DNA from: Seleniivibrio woodruffii
GTDB taxonomy: Bacteria > Chrysiogenota > Deferribacteres > Deferribacterales > Geovibrionaceae
Assembly: GCF_004339245.1 (NCBI RefSeq)
Contig: NZ_SMGG01000004.1
Span: forward strand, 372,001-436,000
Direction: 5' to 3'
Length of the DNA stretch: 64,000 bases
Shown: piece by piece, positions 15,041 to 52,573 of the stretch
Position numbering within the stretch: position 1 is the stretch's first letter
Layout of the letters: each line of letters begins with the position of its first letter
Position numbers and translations under genes: made by a program
The notes under the pieces: model-generated
The model's database searches: none
What the model was told of the DNA's origin: nothing
The model's input: only the letters and a program-made list of their open reading frames with translations

Positions 15041-15628
15041 ATGAAGTATATGCTTGCGGATACATCGGGAAAAGGACTGGCTGTCACCATTTGCGATGAG
15101 CACAGAAAGCCCTTCTCGTCTATCTTTCTGACGCTTGAAAACTCCTTAAGTGAAAAAATGCTCTGGGCGCTGGACGGTCTTCTGTCCGGCTCGGGTCTTT
15201 GTCCTTCGGACATTGACAGGTTTTTCATCGTCAAGGGACCCGGTTCTTTCACAGGGATCAGGGTGGGTGTTGCAACTCTTCTGGGGTTCTGCATGGCGCA
15301 TGGAAAAGTTTTGCAGGGCATCAGCTCTCTTGATGCGGCGGCAATAGTCAGCGGCAGAGAGAAGGTCACTACGGCTGTAAGGCTCCGCGGCAGACTCTAC
15401 GGATACAGACACTATGATTTCGGAAATAACGATTTTTCCGGATATCTTACGGATAAATTTGACAATATTGACGACTTTCTGCTGGTGAACAGCGTTGGCG
15501 GGCAGCAGCTAAACCTTTCGGAGGCCATTCTCTCCGACAGATTCGAGAGCTTTCTGGGCGACTACGCTCCCATGTATATGAGACCCAGCGAAGCGGAGAT
15601 AAATTTTGATAAGAAATGCGGAGCATGA
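15041..15628 (+). CDS. tsaB: tRNA threonylcarbamoyladenosine biosynthesis protein TsaB
   Basis: 195 residues. MLADTSGKGLAVTI near the start and FFIVKGPGSFTGIRVGVAT (about residues 62-80) are TsaB signatures. TsaB partners with TsaD and TsaE to make t6A37 on ANN-decoding tRNAs. It is followed by rimI with a 23-base overlap, a very common bacterial pairing. The C-terminal half is shorter and less conserved, as usual for this family. Confidence 0.93.
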   Translation: MKYMLADTSGKGLAVTICDEHRKPFSSIFLTLENSLSEKMLWALDGLLSGSGLCPSDIDRFFIVKGPGSFTGIRVGVATLLGFCMAHGKVLQGISSLDAAAIVSGREKVTTAVRLRGRLYGYRHYDFGNNDFSGYLTDKFDNIDDFLLVNSVGGQQLNLSEAILSDRFESFLGDYAPMYMRPSEAEINFDKKCGA

Positions 15629-16055
15629 GGATATTGACCGGATTCTGGTCATAGAAAATACCTCGTTTCCCCGCCCATGGAGCAGAAAGTCCTTCGAAAC
15701 TGAACTTTTTAAGGATAACTGCGATTTTTTAGTATACGATATAGATGGGAGTATAGCAGGATACATTGTTTTCTGGTATATTCTTGATGAGGCAGAGCTT
15801 GCGGTTGTTGCTGTTGCGGACGGTTTCCGCAGGCAGGGGATAGCAGGGCGTCTGCTGACGTATTGCGTTGAGAAGAACAAAAATATAAACGTCATATACC
15901 TTGAGGTGGAAAAGACAAACTCTTCCGCCGTAAAGCTATATGAAAAAAAAGGCTTTCGCACTAACGGCGAGATTAAAGATTATTACGGTGAAGGCAGACA
16001 CGCCCTCAGAATGTCCTGCCTCCGTAAAGATTACAGGGGTGACGAGTATGCTTAA
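15606..16055 (+). CDS. rimI: Ribosomal protein alanine N-acetyltransferase
   Basis: 149 residues from TTG 15606 (MIRNAEHEDIDRILVIE), the GNAT-family start expected for RimI. The acetyl-CoA loop is VADGFRRQGIAGRLL (about residues 70-84), followed by LEVEKTNSSAVKLYEKKGF. RimI acetylates the N-terminus of ribosomal protein S18. The start overlaps tsaB by 23 bases, and no ATG gives a complete GNAT beta-1 strand, which supports the TTG start. Confidence 0.88.
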   Translation: MIRNAEHEDIDRILVIENTSFPRPWSRKSFETELFKDNCDFLVYDIDGSIAGYIVFWYILDEAELAVVAVADGFRRQGIAGRLLTYCVEKNKNINVIYLEVEKTNSSAVKLYEKKGFRTNGEIKDYYGEGRHALRMSCLRKDYRGDEYA

Positions 16056-16278
16056 AGACAGCGCACTGGTGGAAAAGATGATTCAGGTGGACGAGGAATT
16101 CAAGGCTCTTTTTGAAAACCACATCCGTTTTGAACAGGACCTTGAGGCTCTTTACAGTCTTAAGTATTTTCCGCCGGAGGTTGAGGCGAAAATGAAGGAG
16201 CTGAAGGTTCTTAAACTCAGAGGAAAGGACAAAATGGAGCAGCTCATGGTTAAATACAAGTCCGATAATGGTTTATAG
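16048..16278 (+). CDS. DUF465/YdcH-like small protein
   Basis: 76 residues, charged and helical (MLKDSALVEKMIQ ... KELKVLKLRGKDKMEQLM). The late LK-x-x-KL-x-x-KD-x-x pattern resembles the DUF465/YdcH family of short coiled-coil proteins of unknown function. The ATG at 16048 is preceded by AGGGGTG and overlaps rimI by eight bases, so it closes the tsaB-rimI operon. Confidence 0.65.
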   Translation: MLKDSALVEKMIQVDEEFKALFENHIRFEQDLEALYSLKYFPPEVEAKMKELKVLKLRGKDKMEQLMVKYKSDNGL

Positions 16279-16288
16279 GAGATAGTTG

Positions 16289-17428
16289 ATGAATAATAAG
16301 AAGTATTTATTCACATCGGAGTCTGTGAGCGAGGGACACCCCGACAAGATTGCAGACCAGATTTCAGACGCAATTCTTGATGCAATGCTTGCCGATGATC
16401 CCAACAGCCGTGTGGCATGTGAAACGCTTGTAACAACAGGCCTCGCTGTCATTTCCGGTGAGGTCACCACAAACACCTATGTGGATATTCAGTCAACAGT
16501 CAGAGAAACGATCCGCCAGATAGGCTACACCAGAGCGAAATTCGGTTTCGATGCCGATACTTGTGGCATCATCATAACACTGAACAAACAGTCCCCAGAC
16601 ATCGCAATGGGCGTTGACACAGGCGGCGCAGGCGACCAGGGTCTTATGTTCGGTTATGCATGTGACGAAACTCCCGAGCTTATGCCCATGCCTATCATGC
16701 TGGCTCACAAAATCACTAAGAAACTCTCCGAAGTTCGCAAAAGCGGGGAACTCAGCTATCTGCGCCCCGACAGCAAATCTCAGGTTACTATAGAATACGA
16801 CGGCTTCACTCCTCTGCGTGTGGACACTGTCGTTGTCAGCTCTCAACACTCCGAAGACATTAAAATGGACACTCTGAAGCGTGACATCATTGAAAAAGTA
16901 ATCAAACCTGTCATCCCCAGCGATATGCTCGATGACAATTGCAAATATCACATCAACCCCACAGGCCGTTTCGTAATAGGCGGACCCATGGGAGACTGCG
17001 GTCTCACCGGCCGTAAGATTATCGTTGACACATACGGCGGCATGGGACGTCACGGCGGCGGCGCTTTCAGCGGAAAAGACCCGTCAAAGGTTGACCGTTC
17101 GGCAGCTTATGCGGCCAGATGGGTTGCCAAAAACATAGTTGCCGCAGGACTTGCGAAAAGATGCGAGATTCAGGTTGCCTATGCAATAGGTGTTGCAGAA
17201 CCCGTCAGCGTTATGGTCAACACTTTCGGAACCTCCGAAGTTGATGAGAAACTTATCGAAAAAGCGGTTAAAGAGGTGTTCGACCTCACTCCCAAAGGTA
17301 TCATGTCCGCCCTTGATCTCCGCAAACCCATATACAGAAAAACAGCCGCTTACGGTCACTTCGGCCGCAACGAGTTTTCATGGGAACAGACCGACAAAGT
17401 TGACGCACTTCTTGCAGCAATACGCTGA
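16289..17428 (+). CDS. metK: S-adenosylmethionine synthetase
   Basis: 379 residues. Motifs are [18 protein letters not shown] (about residues 10-27), the signature [12 protein letters not shown] (about 114-125), and the P-loop-like [19 protein letters not shown]. MetK makes SAM from methionine and ATP. AGGAGATA precedes ATG 16289; the TTG three bases upstream is less likely. It is directly followed by ahcY, linking SAM synthesis with removal of its product SAH. Confidence 0.97.
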
Positions 17429-17495: not shown

Positions 17496-18908
17496 ATGGA
17501 TAACTCGCTCAAATATAAAGTTGCTGATATCTCCCTTGCTGATTTCGGCCGTAAGGAAATCGATATCGCAGAACACGAAATGCCCGGTCTCATGGCCACC
17601 AGAGAGAAATATGCACCGCTTAAGCCTCTGGCCGGCGTGCGCATATCCGGTTCTCTGCATATGACCATCCAGACTGCCGTGCTTATAGAAACCCTTACAG
17701 CCCTCGGTGCTGAGGTCAAATGGGCGAGCTGCAACATTTTCTCCACTCAGGATCATGCCGCCGCTGCAATTGCGGCCGCAGGAACCCCTGTTTACGCATG
17801 GAAGGGTGAAAACCTTGAGGAATACTGGTGGTGCACCGATATGGCACTCCGCTTCGATGGTGGCAAAGGTCCTCAGCTTATAGTTGACGACGGCGGCGAT
17901 GCCACGATGATGATACACATCGGCTACCTCGCAGAGAAAGATCCTTCAATCCTCGACAGAACGCCCCATGGCGAAGATGAGGCCGAACTTTACAAACGCC
18001 TTAAGATAATCCTGAAAGAGAACCCCACCAGATGGCACGACACTGTGAAGGAGTGGAAAGGGGTGTCAGAGGAGACCACAACAGGTGTCCACAGGCTCTA
18101 TCAGATGATGGAAAAAGGTGAACTGCTGGTTCCGGCAATCAATGTAAACGACTCTGTTACAAAATCAAAATTTGATAACCTTTATGGCTGCCGTGAGTCT
18201 CTCGTGGATGGCATAAAAAGAGCCACCGACGTTATGATCGCAGGTAAGGTTGCGGTTGTCTGCGGCTACGGAGACGTGGGCAAAGGATGCGCCGAAGCTC
18301 TTAAAGCAATGGGCGCAATCGTAATGGTCACAGAAGTTGACCCGATCTGCGCACTTCAGGCCTCTATGGCTGGATACGCAGTTAAAACCGTTGAGGACAC
18401 TCTGGGAACAGGCGACATATATGTCACCACCACAGGAAACCTCGACATCATCCGCATTGAGCACATGGAAAAGATGAAAGATCAGGCCATCGTGTGCAAT
18501 ATCGGACACTTTGACAATGAGATACAGGTTTCCAAACTCGAAGAGTTCAAGGGAATCAAAAAACTGAACATCAAGCCTCAGGTTGATAAATACACTTTCC
18601 CTGCGGGCAACTCAATATATCTGCTTGCCGAAGGCAGACTGGTCAACCTCGGATGCGCCACCGGCCACCCGTCGTTCGTTATGAGCAACTCGTTCACAAA
18701 CCAGACCCTTGCACAGATAGACCTCTGGGTGAATAAAGAGAAATACGAGCCCAAGGTTTACAGGCTCAGCAAGAAACTTGACGAGGAGGTTGCAAGACTG
18801 CACCTCGCAAAGATCGGTGCCAAGCTCACTGTGCTTACAAAAGAGCAGGCCGATTACATCGGCGTACCTGTGGAAGGCCCTTACAAGCCTGAGCACTACA
18901 GGTATTAA
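17496..18908 (+). CDS. ahcY: Adenosylhomocysteinase
   Basis: 470 residues, the longer bacterial form. NAD-binding [18 protein letters not shown] (about residues 254-271) and the C-terminal KPEHYRY, whose Lys and Tyr contact NAD of the partner subunit, are both intact. It reversibly splits SAH to adenosine and homocysteine, relieving inhibition of methyltransferases. AGGAG lies eight bases before the ATG. It probably shares a transcript with metK. Confidence 0.97.
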
Positions 18909-18914
18909 TCCTCT

Positions 18915-20282
18915 ATGGTTAAACAACATTTCGACATTGTTGTCATCGGTGCCGGCCCTGCCGGCATCGAATGTGCCAAAATGCTGGCTGACAATGGAAA
19001 ACAGGTTCTGCTGATAGATAAGAACATCGGAGGGAGCTACTGCTTCGCCGGAAGCGTTGTTTCCAATCTGCTTCTGCACATCAGCTATCTGTATGAAAGG
19101 AGCGTCAACAAGGCCTCCAACTTCATTAATGTCGAATACGATAAATCTCCGTCATTTGACTTTAAAAAGGCCAAAAAGTACATAGACGGGGTGACCTCAA
19201 AGCTGGTCAAAGACTTTCAGGATGATCTTGAGGAATCTGGCGTCCAGATAATTCGTGGAACAGCTGTTTTTGAAGATGCGAACACCTTCCGTGTCACCGA
19301 TGACAAACAATCGTTTCTCATCGGTTTTTCAAAGGCTGTCATAGCCACAGGCTCCAACAACATGGGGGCAAATGTCCCTTCAACAAAGAAACTCCTTGAT
19401 TCCACAAATATTTTCGAGCTTACGGCAGCGCCCAAGAGCGTGATTGTCGTTGGCGGCGGTTTCATAGGAACCGAGTTTGCGACATTTTTCAGAAGAATCG
19501 GGTCAACGGTGACCATTATAGAAAAAACTGAAAAAGTTCTTGCCACCATCGACAGGCAGGTTGTCAAAGACTATGAAGACCAGATGAAGAAGAACGGCGT
19601 GGAGATAGTTAAGGGCGTATCGGTGGAGCGCATCGAAAAAGTGGGCAACAAGACCATCGTTTTCCTGAGCAACGACACGAAACTTGAGTCCGAAGAGGTG
19701 TTTCTGTCCATCGGCAGGAAACCGAACATGGGCAGGCTGAGTGTTGATGCCGCAGGAATAAAGCTCTGCGAAAAGGGATTTCCCAAGCTGACTAAAAACC
19801 TGAGAACCACCAACAGGAACGTTTATGTTGTGGGCGACTGCACAGGAATAAATATGTTCGTGAACTGGGCGTACATGTCTGCGGATATGGTTGCCAACGA
19901 CATTCTGGAGCGCAGCAAGATTATTTCAGCGGATTACTGCCCCAGAATCCTGCATCTCGATCCTGAGATAGCAGCCGTAGGCCTCAGCGAGGACAAGGCG
20001 AAGGAGCAGGGCATAGAGTGCAAGGTGATAAGGCATACTTTCAAGAACTTTGAAAAGGCCATAATGTCGGGCACTTTGAAAGGTTTCATAAAGATAATTT
20101 ACGATGATTCCACAAAAAAAATTCTGGGATGCCATGCCATCGGAAGCGGTGCGGCTGACCTTGTCACTACATTTTCAATGATGATCCAGTCAAAAATATC
20201 TCTCAACAAACTGGAGGATTTCGTCTTTAACCACCCGACCTTTTCGGGGGTTCTGGCCGACATCGCAGGTAAGGTTAAATGA
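18915..20282 (+). CDS. Dihydrolipoamide-dehydrogenase-like flavoprotein lacking the redox disulfide
   Basis: 455 residues with a FAD Rossmann motif VVIGAGPAGIECAKML (residues 9-24), an NAD-binding VVGGGFIGTEFATFFRR (about 178-194), a FAD-ribityl motif VYVVGDCTG and the dimerisation domain. Where relatives have the GGTCLNxGCIPSK disulfide, this protein has GGSYCFAGSVVSN: aligned by the glycines, both cysteines are replaced (Tyr and Ser). At the C-terminus HPTxSE reads HPTFSG, so the catalytic Glu is also lost. It may still bind FAD and NAD(P)H, but dithiol chemistry is unlikely. It lies between ahcY and plsC, overlapping plsC by four bases. Confidence 0.85.
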   Translation: MVKQHFDIVVIGAGPAGIECAKMLADNGKQVLLIDKNIGGSYCFAGSVVSNLLLHISYLYERSVNKASNFINVEYDKSPSFDFKKAKKYIDGVTSKLVKDFQDDLEESGVQIIRGTAVFEDANTFRVTDDKQSFLIGFSKAVIATGSNNMGANVPSTKKLLDSTNIFELTAAPKSVIVVGGGFIGTEFATFFRRIGSTVTIIEKTEKVLATIDRQVVKDYEDQMKKNGVEIVKGVSVERIEKVGNKTIVFLSNDTKLESEEVFLSIGRKPNMGRLSVDAAGIKLCEKGFPKLTKNLRTTNRNVYVVGDCTGINMFVNWAYMSADMVANDILERSKIISADYCPRILHLDPEIAAVGLSEDKAKEQGIECKVIRHTFKNFEKAIMSGTLKGFIKIIYDDSTKKILGCHAIGSGAADLVTTFSMMIQSKISLNKLEDFVFNHPTFSGVLADIAGKVK

Positions 20283-20998
20283 AAACAATCTACAGTCTCT
20301 GTGTCTGGATAATATTCGGTCTCATGACCGCTTTTCTTGTTGTGTGCGGTGTTCCGTTCGTTCTTATGGGTAAAAATCCTTTCTTTTTTCTGGCAAAACT
20401 CTGGGCAAGGATAAGCTCGAAACTTTTTCTTGTTAATTATGAAGTTGAAGGCATTGAAAAGATCGAGAAGGACAAAAACTACGTTTTCATGGGCAACCAC
20501 CAGAGCTACGTCGATATCTTTTCCATGATATCCATAATCGATAAACAGTTTCTGTTCATGGCCAAGAGGGAGCTTTTTTCAATTCCCTTTTTCGGCTATG
20601 CCATCAAGCACATGGGTCTTATTCCCATCGACAGGGGCGAGAGCCGTGAGTCGCTGAAAAGCCTTTTTGAGGCGGCAAAAAAGATTCAGGAGGGCTACTC
20701 TGTCCTGCTGTTCCCCGAAGGCACAAGATCTGAGGACGGCGTTATGCTGCCCTTTAAGCGTGGTGCGTTCACTCTGGCGGTCAGAACCGGACAGCCCATT
20801 ATTCCTTTTGTGATAGACGGTTCGGGCAAAGTCATGAAGAAGGGTGCGTTTTACATAAACCCTTTCAAAAAGGTCAGAATACGCTTTCTTGACCCTGTAA
20901 GCCCCGACGGAATCAAGGACAGGGAGATGCTGGATCTTATCAGGGCGAGGATGGAAGATGCACAAAAAGAGCTTGGCGGTTCTGGGGCTGGGAAGTAA
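20279..20998 (+). CDS. plsC: 1-acyl-sn-glycerol-3-phosphate acyltransferase
   Basis: 239 residues. One N-terminal membrane helix precedes the catalytic NHQSYVD (HX4D motif, about residue 74) and LFPEGTRSEDG (motif III, about 144). PlsC acylates lysophosphatidic acid to phosphatidic acid at the inner membrane. It overlaps the flavoprotein upstream by four bases and folK downstream by 41 bases, so the three genes are co-transcribed. Confidence 0.93.
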   Translation: MKTIYSLCVWIIFGLMTAFLVVCGVPFVLMGKNPFFFLAKLWARISSKLFLVNYEVEGIEKIEKDKNYVFMGNHQSYVDIFSMISIIDKQFLFMAKRELFSIPFFGYAIKHMGLIPIDRGESRESLKSLFEAAKKIQEGYSVLLFPEGTRSEDGVMLPFKRGAFTLAVRTGQPIIPFVIDGSGKVMKKGAFYINPFKKVRIRFLDPVSPDGIKDREMLDLIRARMEDAQKELGGSGAGK

Positions 20999-21464
20999 CC
21001 TCGGGCGCAAGTCCGGAAATCTTGCCGATGCTGTCAGGGAGATATCCCGTTTCTGCGAGGTTGTGAGGGTTTCATCGGTCTATAAGACCGCTTCGCTTCT
21101 GCGTGATTCTCAGGACGGATATTTCAACCTATGTATGCTTGTACGGACTGATTTTTCTCCTGAAAATCTTCTCACGGCAGTTAAAAACCTTGAAAAGGTC
21201 ATGGGCAGGGAGAATACCGGACGATGGTATACCCGCCTTATAGATATAGATATAATCGATTTTGACAGAACAGTTCTGACCCTTCCTCAGCTTAATCTGC
21301 CACACATAGAGATGCAGAACCGCAGTTTCGTTCTGTATCCCATGGCGGAAATTTATCCGGACTACGTTCACCCTGTAAGTTGCCAAAACATTCATGATAT
21401 GATAAAAAATATTAAAGACGATCTTGGCATAACCAGACTGGGGGTGTGCGTATGGCGATTATAA
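20958..21464 (+). CDS. folK: HPPK, 6-hydroxymethyl-7,8-dihydropterin pyrophosphokinase
   Basis: 168 residues. LGLGSNLGRKSGNLADAV is the HPPK N-terminus, FNLCMLVRTDFSPENLL follows, and TRLIDIDIIDFD carries the Mg-binding DxD pair. FolK activates the pterin for folate synthesis. The start lies inside plsC in another frame (41-base overlap), an unusually long but credible overlap because HPPK needs this N-terminus. folA is elsewhere in the window (52088-52573). Confidence 0.93.
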   Translation: MHKKSLAVLGLGSNLGRKSGNLADAVREISRFCEVVRVSSVYKTASLLRDSQDGYFNLCMLVRTDFSPENLLTAVKNLEKVMGRENTGRWYTRLIDIDIIDFDRTVLTLPQLNLPHIEMQNRSFVLYPMAEIYPDYVHPVSCQNIHDMIKNIKDDLGITRLGVCVWRL

Positions 21465-51045: not shown

Positions 51046-52127
51046 TGAAAATACTTCATATTGACACAGGAAAAGAATGGAGAGGCGGACAGAGGCAGGT
51101 TCAGTTCCTGCACGAAGGGCTTCTGGAGTGCGGTTTCGAATCGATTCTGGTCTGTAACGCAGACGGACAGTTTCCTAAAAAAGGGTTCCCTGCAACAGTT
51201 GCCCTGAAGTTTAAAGGCGAAGCCGACATCAGCTTCATAAGTGGCCTTAAAGCTATCATACGCAAAGAAAAACCTGATATAATACACACCCACGATGCCC
51301 ATTCGCTCACCCCTGCTGTGTTTGCGAAGCTTATGACAGGCGGTTTTAAGCTCATAAACACCAGACGTGTGGCTTTTTCCATAAACAAGGGATATTTCAG
51401 CAGAAAAAAATACAACAATTCTCAGGTGGACAGGATTGCGGCCATCTCTCAGGCTGTTAAAGACGCACTCATCGGTGACGGCATACCTGCGGCCAAGATA
51501 AGTCTGGTTCACAGCGGAGTCAGATTTCCGAAAAGCATCAACTACCGGATGCGCAGCGAGTTAAGGGAGAAATACGGCCTTCAGGGCAGATTTGTGATAG
51601 GAAACGTCGCAAACATATCGCCTATGAAAGGCCACCAGACGCTGATAGACGCCTTTGTAAAGTTCAGGGCGGAGGCGGAAGATGCTGTCCTTGTGCTTGT
51701 GGGCGGCGGGCCTCAGGCTGATGAAATGAAAGCCTATGCGCAGGCAACTCCTTATGCGGACAGTATTATTTTTACAGGACACACGGATGATGTGTACGAA
51801 CACATGGCACTTTTCGATATATTCTGCATGCCCTCTCTCTCGGAGGGGCTTTGCACGTCCATCATCGATGCAATGTTCATGATGCTTCCCGTGATCGCTT
51901 CCGACACGGGCGGGATACCTGAGCTTGTAAAGCCCGGTTTCAACGGTATTCTTGTACCTGTCAAGGATGCTGAAGCGCTTTCAGAGAGCCTGAACGAGCT
52001 TTATGACGATTCAGAAATGCTGAAAAAATACTCCAACAACGGATTTCATACGGCGTTGAAGTTTTCTGAAACGGCGATGGTGTCAGCCTATATCAGGCTG
52101 TATGAGGAACTTTGCCGACGGGTGTAG
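51045..52127 (+). CDS. Glycosyltransferase family 4
   Basis: 360 residues, GT-B fold. The acceptor domain comes first (KEWRGGQRQVQFLHEGL, residues 11-27) and the donor domain shows GNVANISPMKGHQTLIDAF, then MPSLSEGLCTSIIDAM with the EX7E-like pattern. It probably adds a sugar to an envelope glycan or lipid from a nucleotide sugar. Overlaps the thioesterase by one base and converges with folA, overlapping it by 40 bases. Confidence 0.88.
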   Translation: MKILHIDTGKEWRGGQRQVQFLHEGLLECGFESILVCNADGQFPKKGFPATVALKFKGEADISFISGLKAIIRKEKPDIIHTHDAHSLTPAVFAKLMTGGFKLINTRRVAFSINKGYFSRKKYNNSQVDRIAAISQAVKDALIGDGIPAAKISLVHSGVRFPKSINYRMRSELREKYGLQGRFVIGNVANISPMKGHQTLIDAFVKFRAEAEDAVLVLVGGGPQADEMKAYAQATPYADSIIFTGHTDDVYEHMALFDIFCMPSLSEGLCTSIIDAMFMMLPVIASDTGGIPELVKPGFNGILVPVKDAEALSESLNELYDDSEMLKKYSNNGFHTALKFSETAMVSAYIRLYEELCRRV

Positions 52128-52573
52128 TGAACCATTGTGAAGTCGTCGTAATATGCTTTATCCGCTTCGTGCCACTCTGAAAAATCTATTTCGGGAAAAT
52201 AGCTGTCACCTTTGTGGCTGCCGTTGATCCATGAGATAAGCATGTGTGACACTATATTTATCACCTGACCGTAAACCTCTGCCCCGCCAATGAAAAACAG
52301 CTTTTTATCAGACAGCTCCCCTATTCTCACAGCTTCCAGAATTGATCCGCAGACTGTAACCCCTTCAACCGGTGTGTGAGACAGGACTATATTCTCCCTT
52401 TCCGGCAGCGGCTTTCCGATGGATTCATAGGTTTTTCTTCCCATGACGACTATATTTCCTGTGGTTATCTTCCTGAACATCTTAAGATCCTGAGGAATAT
52501 GCCATGGCATTTTTCCATCGGAACCGATAACTCTGTCCTTTGTCATTGCGGCTATCAGATAAAGTTCTTTCAT
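52088..52573 (-). CDS. folA: Dihydrofolate reductase
   Basis: 161 residues. IAAMTKDRVIGSDGKMPWHI with the catalytic Asp further on (IPQDLKMF), VVMGRKTYESIG and FIGGAEVYGQ are the classical DHFR blocks. It regenerates tetrahydrofolate. The 3' end overlaps the convergent glycosyltransferase by 40 bases. Its start overlaps the end of the upstream transferase gene by four bases. Confidence 0.94.
   Translation of the reverse strand: MKELYLIAAMTKDRVIGSDGKMPWHIPQDLKMFRKITTGNIVVMGRKTYESIGKPLPERENIVLSHTPVEGVTVCGSILEAVRIGELSDKKLFFIGGAEVYGQVINIVSHMLISWINGSHKGDSYFPEIDFSEWHEADKAYYDDFTMVHYTRRQSSSYSLI

Follow-up and report, generated by a model that had tools for sequence, protein, structure and literature searches.

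A cysteine-less variant of the dihydrolipoamide dehydrogenase fold in the Deferribacterales

Two relatives of dihydrolipoamide dehydrogenase (Lpd) are direct precedents for a protein of this fold without a working disulfide. In yeast Irc15p, Tyr and Ala replace the two cysteines; NADH reduces this protein at 250 per second, and it in turn reduces ferricyanide, DCPIP, MTT and menadione, but not disulfides (PMC6296175). LpdA of Mycobacterium tuberculosis, in which one cysteine and the His-Glu dyad are missing, is a quinone reductase (PMC6296175). Both are distant relatives of the protein described here, and their own physiological roles are unsettled.

We have analyzed a 64,000-nucleotide stretch (the window) of a 2.9 Mb Seleniivibrio genome; among named genomes, Seleniivibrio, Denitrovibrio and other Deferribacteraceae MAGs come closest to it. 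One of the genes in the window encodes an Lpd-like protein with neither cysteine.

Fold and active site of the gene product

The gene and the motifs discussed below lie at the following positions of the window.

18915-20282, + strand: cysteine-less Lpd-fold FAD/NAD protein, 455 aa (open reading frame and translation, Pfam, AlphaFold model)
18948-18965, + strand: FAD-binding motif GAGPAG, residues 12-17 (G12, G14 and G17 invariant in the family)
19029-19067, + strand: remodelled disulfide site GGSYCFAGSVVSN, residues 39-51 (by alignment, Tyr42 and Ser47 for the cysteines and Asn51 for Lys)
19161-19238, + strand: helix 83-108 with a conserved basic face (column counts; helix in the AlphaFold model; face by helical wheel)
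19452-19523, + strand: NAD-binding motif GGGFIGxE...E203, residues 180-203 (G180, G181, G182, G185, E187 and E203 in 36/36 members)
20232-20249, + strand: HPTFSG, residues 440-445, counterpart of the HPTxSE dyad (alignment)

The reading frame opens with ATG and runs for 455 codons with zero internal stops. Its product comprises the Pfam domains PF07992 (Pyr_redox_2) and PF02852 (Pyr_redox_dim), and the AlphaFold model (pLDDT 89.4, pTM 0.87) adopts the Lpd fold, with Lpd structures as its top PDB matches (TM about 0.92). The FAD motif, the NAD motif, the second FAD motif (GD) and the C-terminal dimerisation domain that define the flavoprotein disulfide reductase superfamily are all present. The top-scoring curated model is that of lipoamide dehydrogenase (TIGR01350), at 339.8 bits against a cut-off of 408.8; across 16 orthologues the lowest E-value for this model is 5.5e-103, little better than that of the Seleniivibrio protein. 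Neither the SthA model NF003585 (276.4 bits, cut-off 465) nor the LpdA-type NAD(P)H quinone dehydrogenase model NF005883 (221.1 bits, cut-off 479) is reached, and among the equivalog models listed there is none that the protein passes at the model's own cut-off. Judged by these scores and motifs, it shares the superfamily fold but lies outside every subfamily tested.

The disulfide site of the protein is remodelled. In alignment with the CxxxxCxxSK segment of E. coli Lpd, Tyr42 takes the place of C45, Ser47 that of C50 and Asn51 that of K54. An earlier note, made on the window's sequence, had read Tyr and Ser at the two cysteine positions and a single displaced Cys; the alignment bears out both points and places the latter, Cys43, one residue past the first cysteine position. 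None of the 36 aligned orthologues has either cysteine. The loss of the active-site Lys is additional to the losses named in that note, and is family-wide: residue 51 is Asn in 30 and Glu in 6 of the 36 members, as against Lys in 38/38 comparison proteins. On these alignments, Lys loss is as diagnostic of the family as cysteine loss. A Tyr in place of Cys is seen in the Seleniivibrio protein, in Irc15p and again in three same-phylum SthA-like proteins, and this recurrence suggests that Tyr can suitably fill the site of the first cysteine.

The second catalytic motif, HPTxSE, does read HPTFSG in the Seleniivibrio protein, as the note had stated; His440 is retained, and the Glu of the dyad is replaced by Gly445. 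Its description of the protein as having lost the acid holds for Seleniivibrio but not for the family, in which position 445 is acidic in 26/36 members (Glu in 23/36, Asp in 3/36). In the sister genera g1 and g4 (the Seleniivibrio/Denitrovibrio pair) this residue is Gly, Ser or Asn, and family f8 has Ser there; His440 is retained in 20/36 members. Since the acid or the His has been lost in parts of the family and the cysteines in all of it, the whole clade shares the disulfide loss, and dyad erosion is later and repeated.

The cofactor sites were correctly described as intact: GAGPAG, the GD motif at residues 307-308, GGGFIGxE and Glu203 are all present, and G307 and D308 are invariant in the family, as are K393 and P441. 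Glu203 is an NAD-type residue and points to NADH as the likely donor. Family-specific invariants include K88, G244, K246 and F263, with W318 and S322 almost so. K88 is part of a basic stripe of Lys or Arg at positions 84, 85, 87, 88, 96 and 99 of helix 83-108. F101 of this helix aligns with Tyr99 of E. coli glutathione reductase (GR), a substrate-pocket residue, and a helical wheel puts the stripe on the opposite side. Read in this way, the stripe may be a docking surface. We rejected the idea that the basic helix lines the substrate channel, because by the same helical-wheel reasoning the stripe points away from F101 and surface docking is the likelier role.

Descent and gene neighbourhood in the Deferribacterales

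A full-length orthologue, at 36-100% identity, is present in 38 of 46 Deferribacterales genomes (own genome counted), and one more carries an orthologue fragment at a contig edge. Two genomes of family f6 have no match, and in these metK is undetected or cut at a contig end, so the two absences are likely to be assembly gaps. Family f4 has no match in 5/5 genomes. In one f4 assembly with space downstream of metK-ahcY (G014), the gene is absent from that place; this family seems truly to be without it, and we saw no obvious replacement there. Apart from a 34-residue match and a Colwellia protein that has the cysteines, a scan of 84,980 species genomes with two short motifs, which distant members elsewhere could escape, returned Deferribacterales members only.

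In a tree built without the motif columns, the 36 aligned members form one clade (support 100/100, stem 0.9), and the cysteine-bearing paralogues of the same genomes fall outside it. Most genome families are recovered within the clade, which indicates vertical descent across the order. Values of dN/dS, which are rough since synonymous sites are near saturation, are 0.03-0.04 against three 91%-identical genomes and 0.10 against a 73%-identical one; the former resemble those of ahcY, plsC and hisS. The gene is under strong purifying selection. The family tree proposed in the earlier note as a check thus returns the cysteine-less form as a conserved clade, and the outcome that it had named as refuting, in which close homologues keep the cysteines and the gene is a sequence error or an isolated pseudogene, is excluded by the 36 orthologues and a dN/dS of about 0.03. 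The clade is an order-wide, cysteine-less branch of the flavoprotein disulfide reductase superfamily and, as far as the two-motif scan reaches, specific to this order.

The gene lies in a conserved block with these neighbors.

15606-16055, + strand: rimI-like acetyltransferase, which opens the conserved block (PF00583, synteny)
16286-17428, + strand: metK, constant upstream neighbor (synteny; named by sequence and order-wide conservation)
17496-18908, + strand: ahcY, immediate upstream neighbor, absent at the locus in families f2, f3 and f7 (open reading frame list, synteny)
20279-20998, + strand: plsC-type acyltransferase, with a 4-bp overlap with the lpd-like gene (TIGR00530 above cut-off, synteny)
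20958-21464, + strand: folK (HPPK), constant downstream neighbor (PF01288, synteny)

The full order, rimI - small ORF - metK - ahcY - lpd-like gene - plsC - folK - cytidylate-kinase-like gene - hisS - aspS, is kept over the Deferribacterales, with some losses. The reported coupling to plsC and adjacency to ahcY are both real: the lpd-like and plsC frames overlap at ATGA, and the ahcY stop lies 6 bp upstream. Families f2, f3 and f7 lack both ahcY and plsC at the locus, yet the lpd-like gene stays between metK and folK, which rules out an obligatory partnership with AhcY or PlsC. The locus is of a housekeeping type, and this neighborhood offers no hint of the electron acceptor.

Two further observations concern the block itself. 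The ahcY at this locus is of two types, one about 80% identical to the Seleniivibrio gene, in family f1, and the other only 36-42% identical to it, in f4, f5, f6 and f8 (loci compared: L046-L052 and L120-L124), and both occupy the same position. The small ORF between rimI and metK (15940-16278, + strand) is conserved across the order at 50-74% identity by tblastn, and the called frame matches no Pfam family; because this frame runs into the end of rimI, its true start may be further downstream.

Proposed reaction and its alternatives

We consider it probable that the protein works as a flavin enzyme, depends on NADH and acts on a target other than that of Lpd. With a probability of roughly 0.6, it would be a functional enzyme of the Lpd fold that passes electrons from FADH2 to a non-disulfide acceptor without a thiol relay. 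NADH would first reduce FAD, as the intact, invariant FAD and NAD motifs suggest; FADH2 would then reduce the non-disulfide acceptor directly, both cysteines and the Lys being gone in every orthologue. More tentatively, the basic face of helix 83-108 could be the docking site for a partner of acidic character or for some other surface carrying negative charge. Because the NADH and FAD sites are intact and the thiols gone, transfer from NADH through FAD to such an acceptor would be the simplest mechanism. By analogy with Irc15p and M. tuberculosis LpdA, the protein should behave as a diaphorase or quinone reductase without disulfide reductase activity. Reduction of its flavin by NADH may be slower or altered, since the active-site Lys has been lost though it is present in all the comparison proteins. 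The earlier suggestion, that this may be a new flavoenzyme using NAD(P)H or a protein that transfers electrons, survives as the best reading, with NADH the likely donor.

A bolder form of this proposal, which we hold tentatively and at less than even odds, is that the clade is an enzyme dedicated to a physiological reaction of a new kind. It would be an NADH-dependent flavoprotein, part of Deferribacterales core metabolism, that reduces a specific non-disulfide partner by means of its remodelled Tyr/Ser/Asn active site and basic docking helix. Candidates for the partner include an electron carrier of acidic character and centres of the cobalamin, quinone or pterin type.

An unlikely alternative is a non-catalytic or sensory flavoprotein, in which turnover would have lost its importance and bound FAD and NAD(H) would serve a partner structurally or in redox sensing. 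The loss of the thiols, of the Lys and, in several lineages, of the His and Glu is consistent with this, as is the apparent surface location of many family-specific invariants (K88, G244, K246; basic helix). However, the motifs for NAD and FAD show full invariance, and Irc15p, a similar protein, does turn over with NADH.

We also considered a reductase that reactivates methionine synthase (MetH) by reducing cob(II)alamin, alongside MetK and AhcY in the methyl cycle, and regard it as improbable. Every genome examined has the gene beside metK; almost all carriers have MetH with its activation domain, which gives a weak match or none in the gene-less family f4; and many carriers have no stand-alone flavodoxin. 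Against this, the ratio of activation-domain to B12-domain identity in f4 (0.70-0.76) is like that of f6 carriers (0.66-0.79), so that per-domain divergence shows no specific decay of the activation domain in f4 and leaves the proposal unsupported. Moreover, f10 has MetH without the lpd-like gene, the Seleniivibrio genome has a flavodoxin-sized match, and there is a single loss event to judge from.

Flavodoxin is the usual partner in MetH reactivation. Most f6 genomes (MetH loci L143-L146) have the activation domain and no flavodoxin match above cut-off, and another MetH reductase is therefore needed there; nothing but gene order singles out the lpd-like protein for this role.

About as improbable is a soluble NAD(P) transhydrogenase of the SthA type. 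SthA works without a disulfide, a similar FN(H/Y)PT motif is found, SthA-like proteins of the same phylum also carry Tyr at the first cysteine position, and a tree constrained to make them the sister group is not rejected (p-AU 0.178). The free tree, in contrast, puts the SthA-like proteins in a separate 100/100 clade; these proteins retain the active-site Lys that is lost in the Seleniivibrio protein, and the SthA model score of the latter is far under the cut-off.

The SthA-like proteins with Tyr come from f10 (L074, L079 and L091, from genomes G050, G048 and G049, respectively). In these, both cysteines are absent (GGNYLHNGTIPSK), with Tyr at the first cysteine position and the Lys retained.

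A single-cysteine enzyme, akin to NADH peroxidase or oxidase and acting through the displaced Cys43, is highly improbable. Cys43 is present in 27/36 members, but it is Ser, Lys, Leu or Val across families f7, f2 and f8, and among the 36 aligned members no cysteine is invariant at any position of the protein. We therefore rejected Cys43 as a catalytic thiol.

We give equally little credence to a flavin-dependent dihydrofolate or dihydropteroate reductase that substitutes for FolA next to folK. The gene adjoins folK in f2, f3 and f7, and FolA is confined to g1 and g4, the sister pair that lacks the dyad acid and has a changed FolP; this coincidence of FolA and acid loss is one event on the tree. 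In genus g1, however, strong selection maintains the gene although FolA is present. FolA-less genomes mostly have a long FolP with an N-terminal extension that would make up for the missing FolA, and f4 and f10 have neither FolA nor the lpd-like gene, yet have folK or folP. The lpd-like protein is thus not needed as a dihydrofolate reductase.

The folate genes themselves offer a separate observation, from loci L151-L180 and one gene of the window.

52088-52573, - strand: FolA (DHFR)

Within the order, FolA is found only in g1 and g4, which have a short FolP (frame of about 280-302 aa); where FolA is lacking and folP is complete, the folP frame is mostly about 390-460 aa long. In the sequences inspected, the long FolP has an extension of about 125 aa before the DHPS domain. 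Fusion of DHPS to a flavin-dependent dihydropteroate reductase is known as a replacement for FolA (PMC1971073), and the extension looks like such a flavin-type domain, swapped with FolA.

Least probable of all is a diverged dihydrolipoamide dehydrogenase (E3) or a decayed pseudogene: the top curated model and the fold are those of Lpd, but the thiols are absent, purifying selection excludes a pseudogene, and the two GcvH-bearing genomes inspected (G009, G011) have a cysteine-bearing Lpd about 5 kb away. In a check of lipoyl complexes that used GcvH alone, GcvH was not found in the Seleniivibrio genome or in most carriers, so an E3 role without thiols of its own is very unlikely. The sole other PF02852 protein of the source genome is, on reading its sequence, CoA-disulfide-reductase-like with a rhodanese-like C terminus.

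Comparison with known systems

Similarity-based annotation is likely to label these proteins dihydrolipoyl dehydrogenase or generic FAD oxidoreductase, and the former label would be wrong because they are incapable of dithiol chemistry. The clade, in which two cysteines and a Lys have been lost and the NADH and FAD sites retained, is a natural series on what the fold can do without its disulfide. Neither Irc15p nor M. tuberculosis LpdA, the cases known to lack a working disulfide, has a settled physiological acceptor; the conserved neighborhood and the single loss within the order (f4) make the clade well suited to finding one.

The canonical Lpd/E3 proteins (1EBD, 6UZI, E. coli Lpd) share with the Seleniivibrio protein full-length homology, fold, FAD and NAD motifs, dimerisation domain and HPT motif, whereas the latter has neither CxxxxC nor the active-site Lys, scores below the Lpd cut-off and, by the GcvH check, is not linked to lipoyl systems. 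SthA/UdhA resembles it in being disulfide-free, in the FN(H/Y)PT motif and, in three same-phylum SthA-like proteins, in Tyr at the first cysteine position; the SthA-like proteins differ in forming a separate clade, retaining the Lys and having Thr at the second cysteine position. M. tuberculosis LpdA (Rv3303c), an NAD(P)H quinone reductase, is likewise Lpd-like, without a working disulfide or disulfide reductase activity (PMC6296175), and lacks the dyad, as does the HPTFSG protein. In LpdA, however, only one of the two cysteines is missing, and the Seleniivibrio protein falls far under the related model NF005883. As judged from its published description, Irc15p is also an Lpd homolog in which both cysteines are replaced, the first by Tyr as in the Seleniivibrio protein, and the NADH and FAD sites are retained (PMC6296175). 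In contrast to the Seleniivibrio protein, it is a duplicate of yeast Lpd1, is microtubule-associated and retains the His-Glu dyad.
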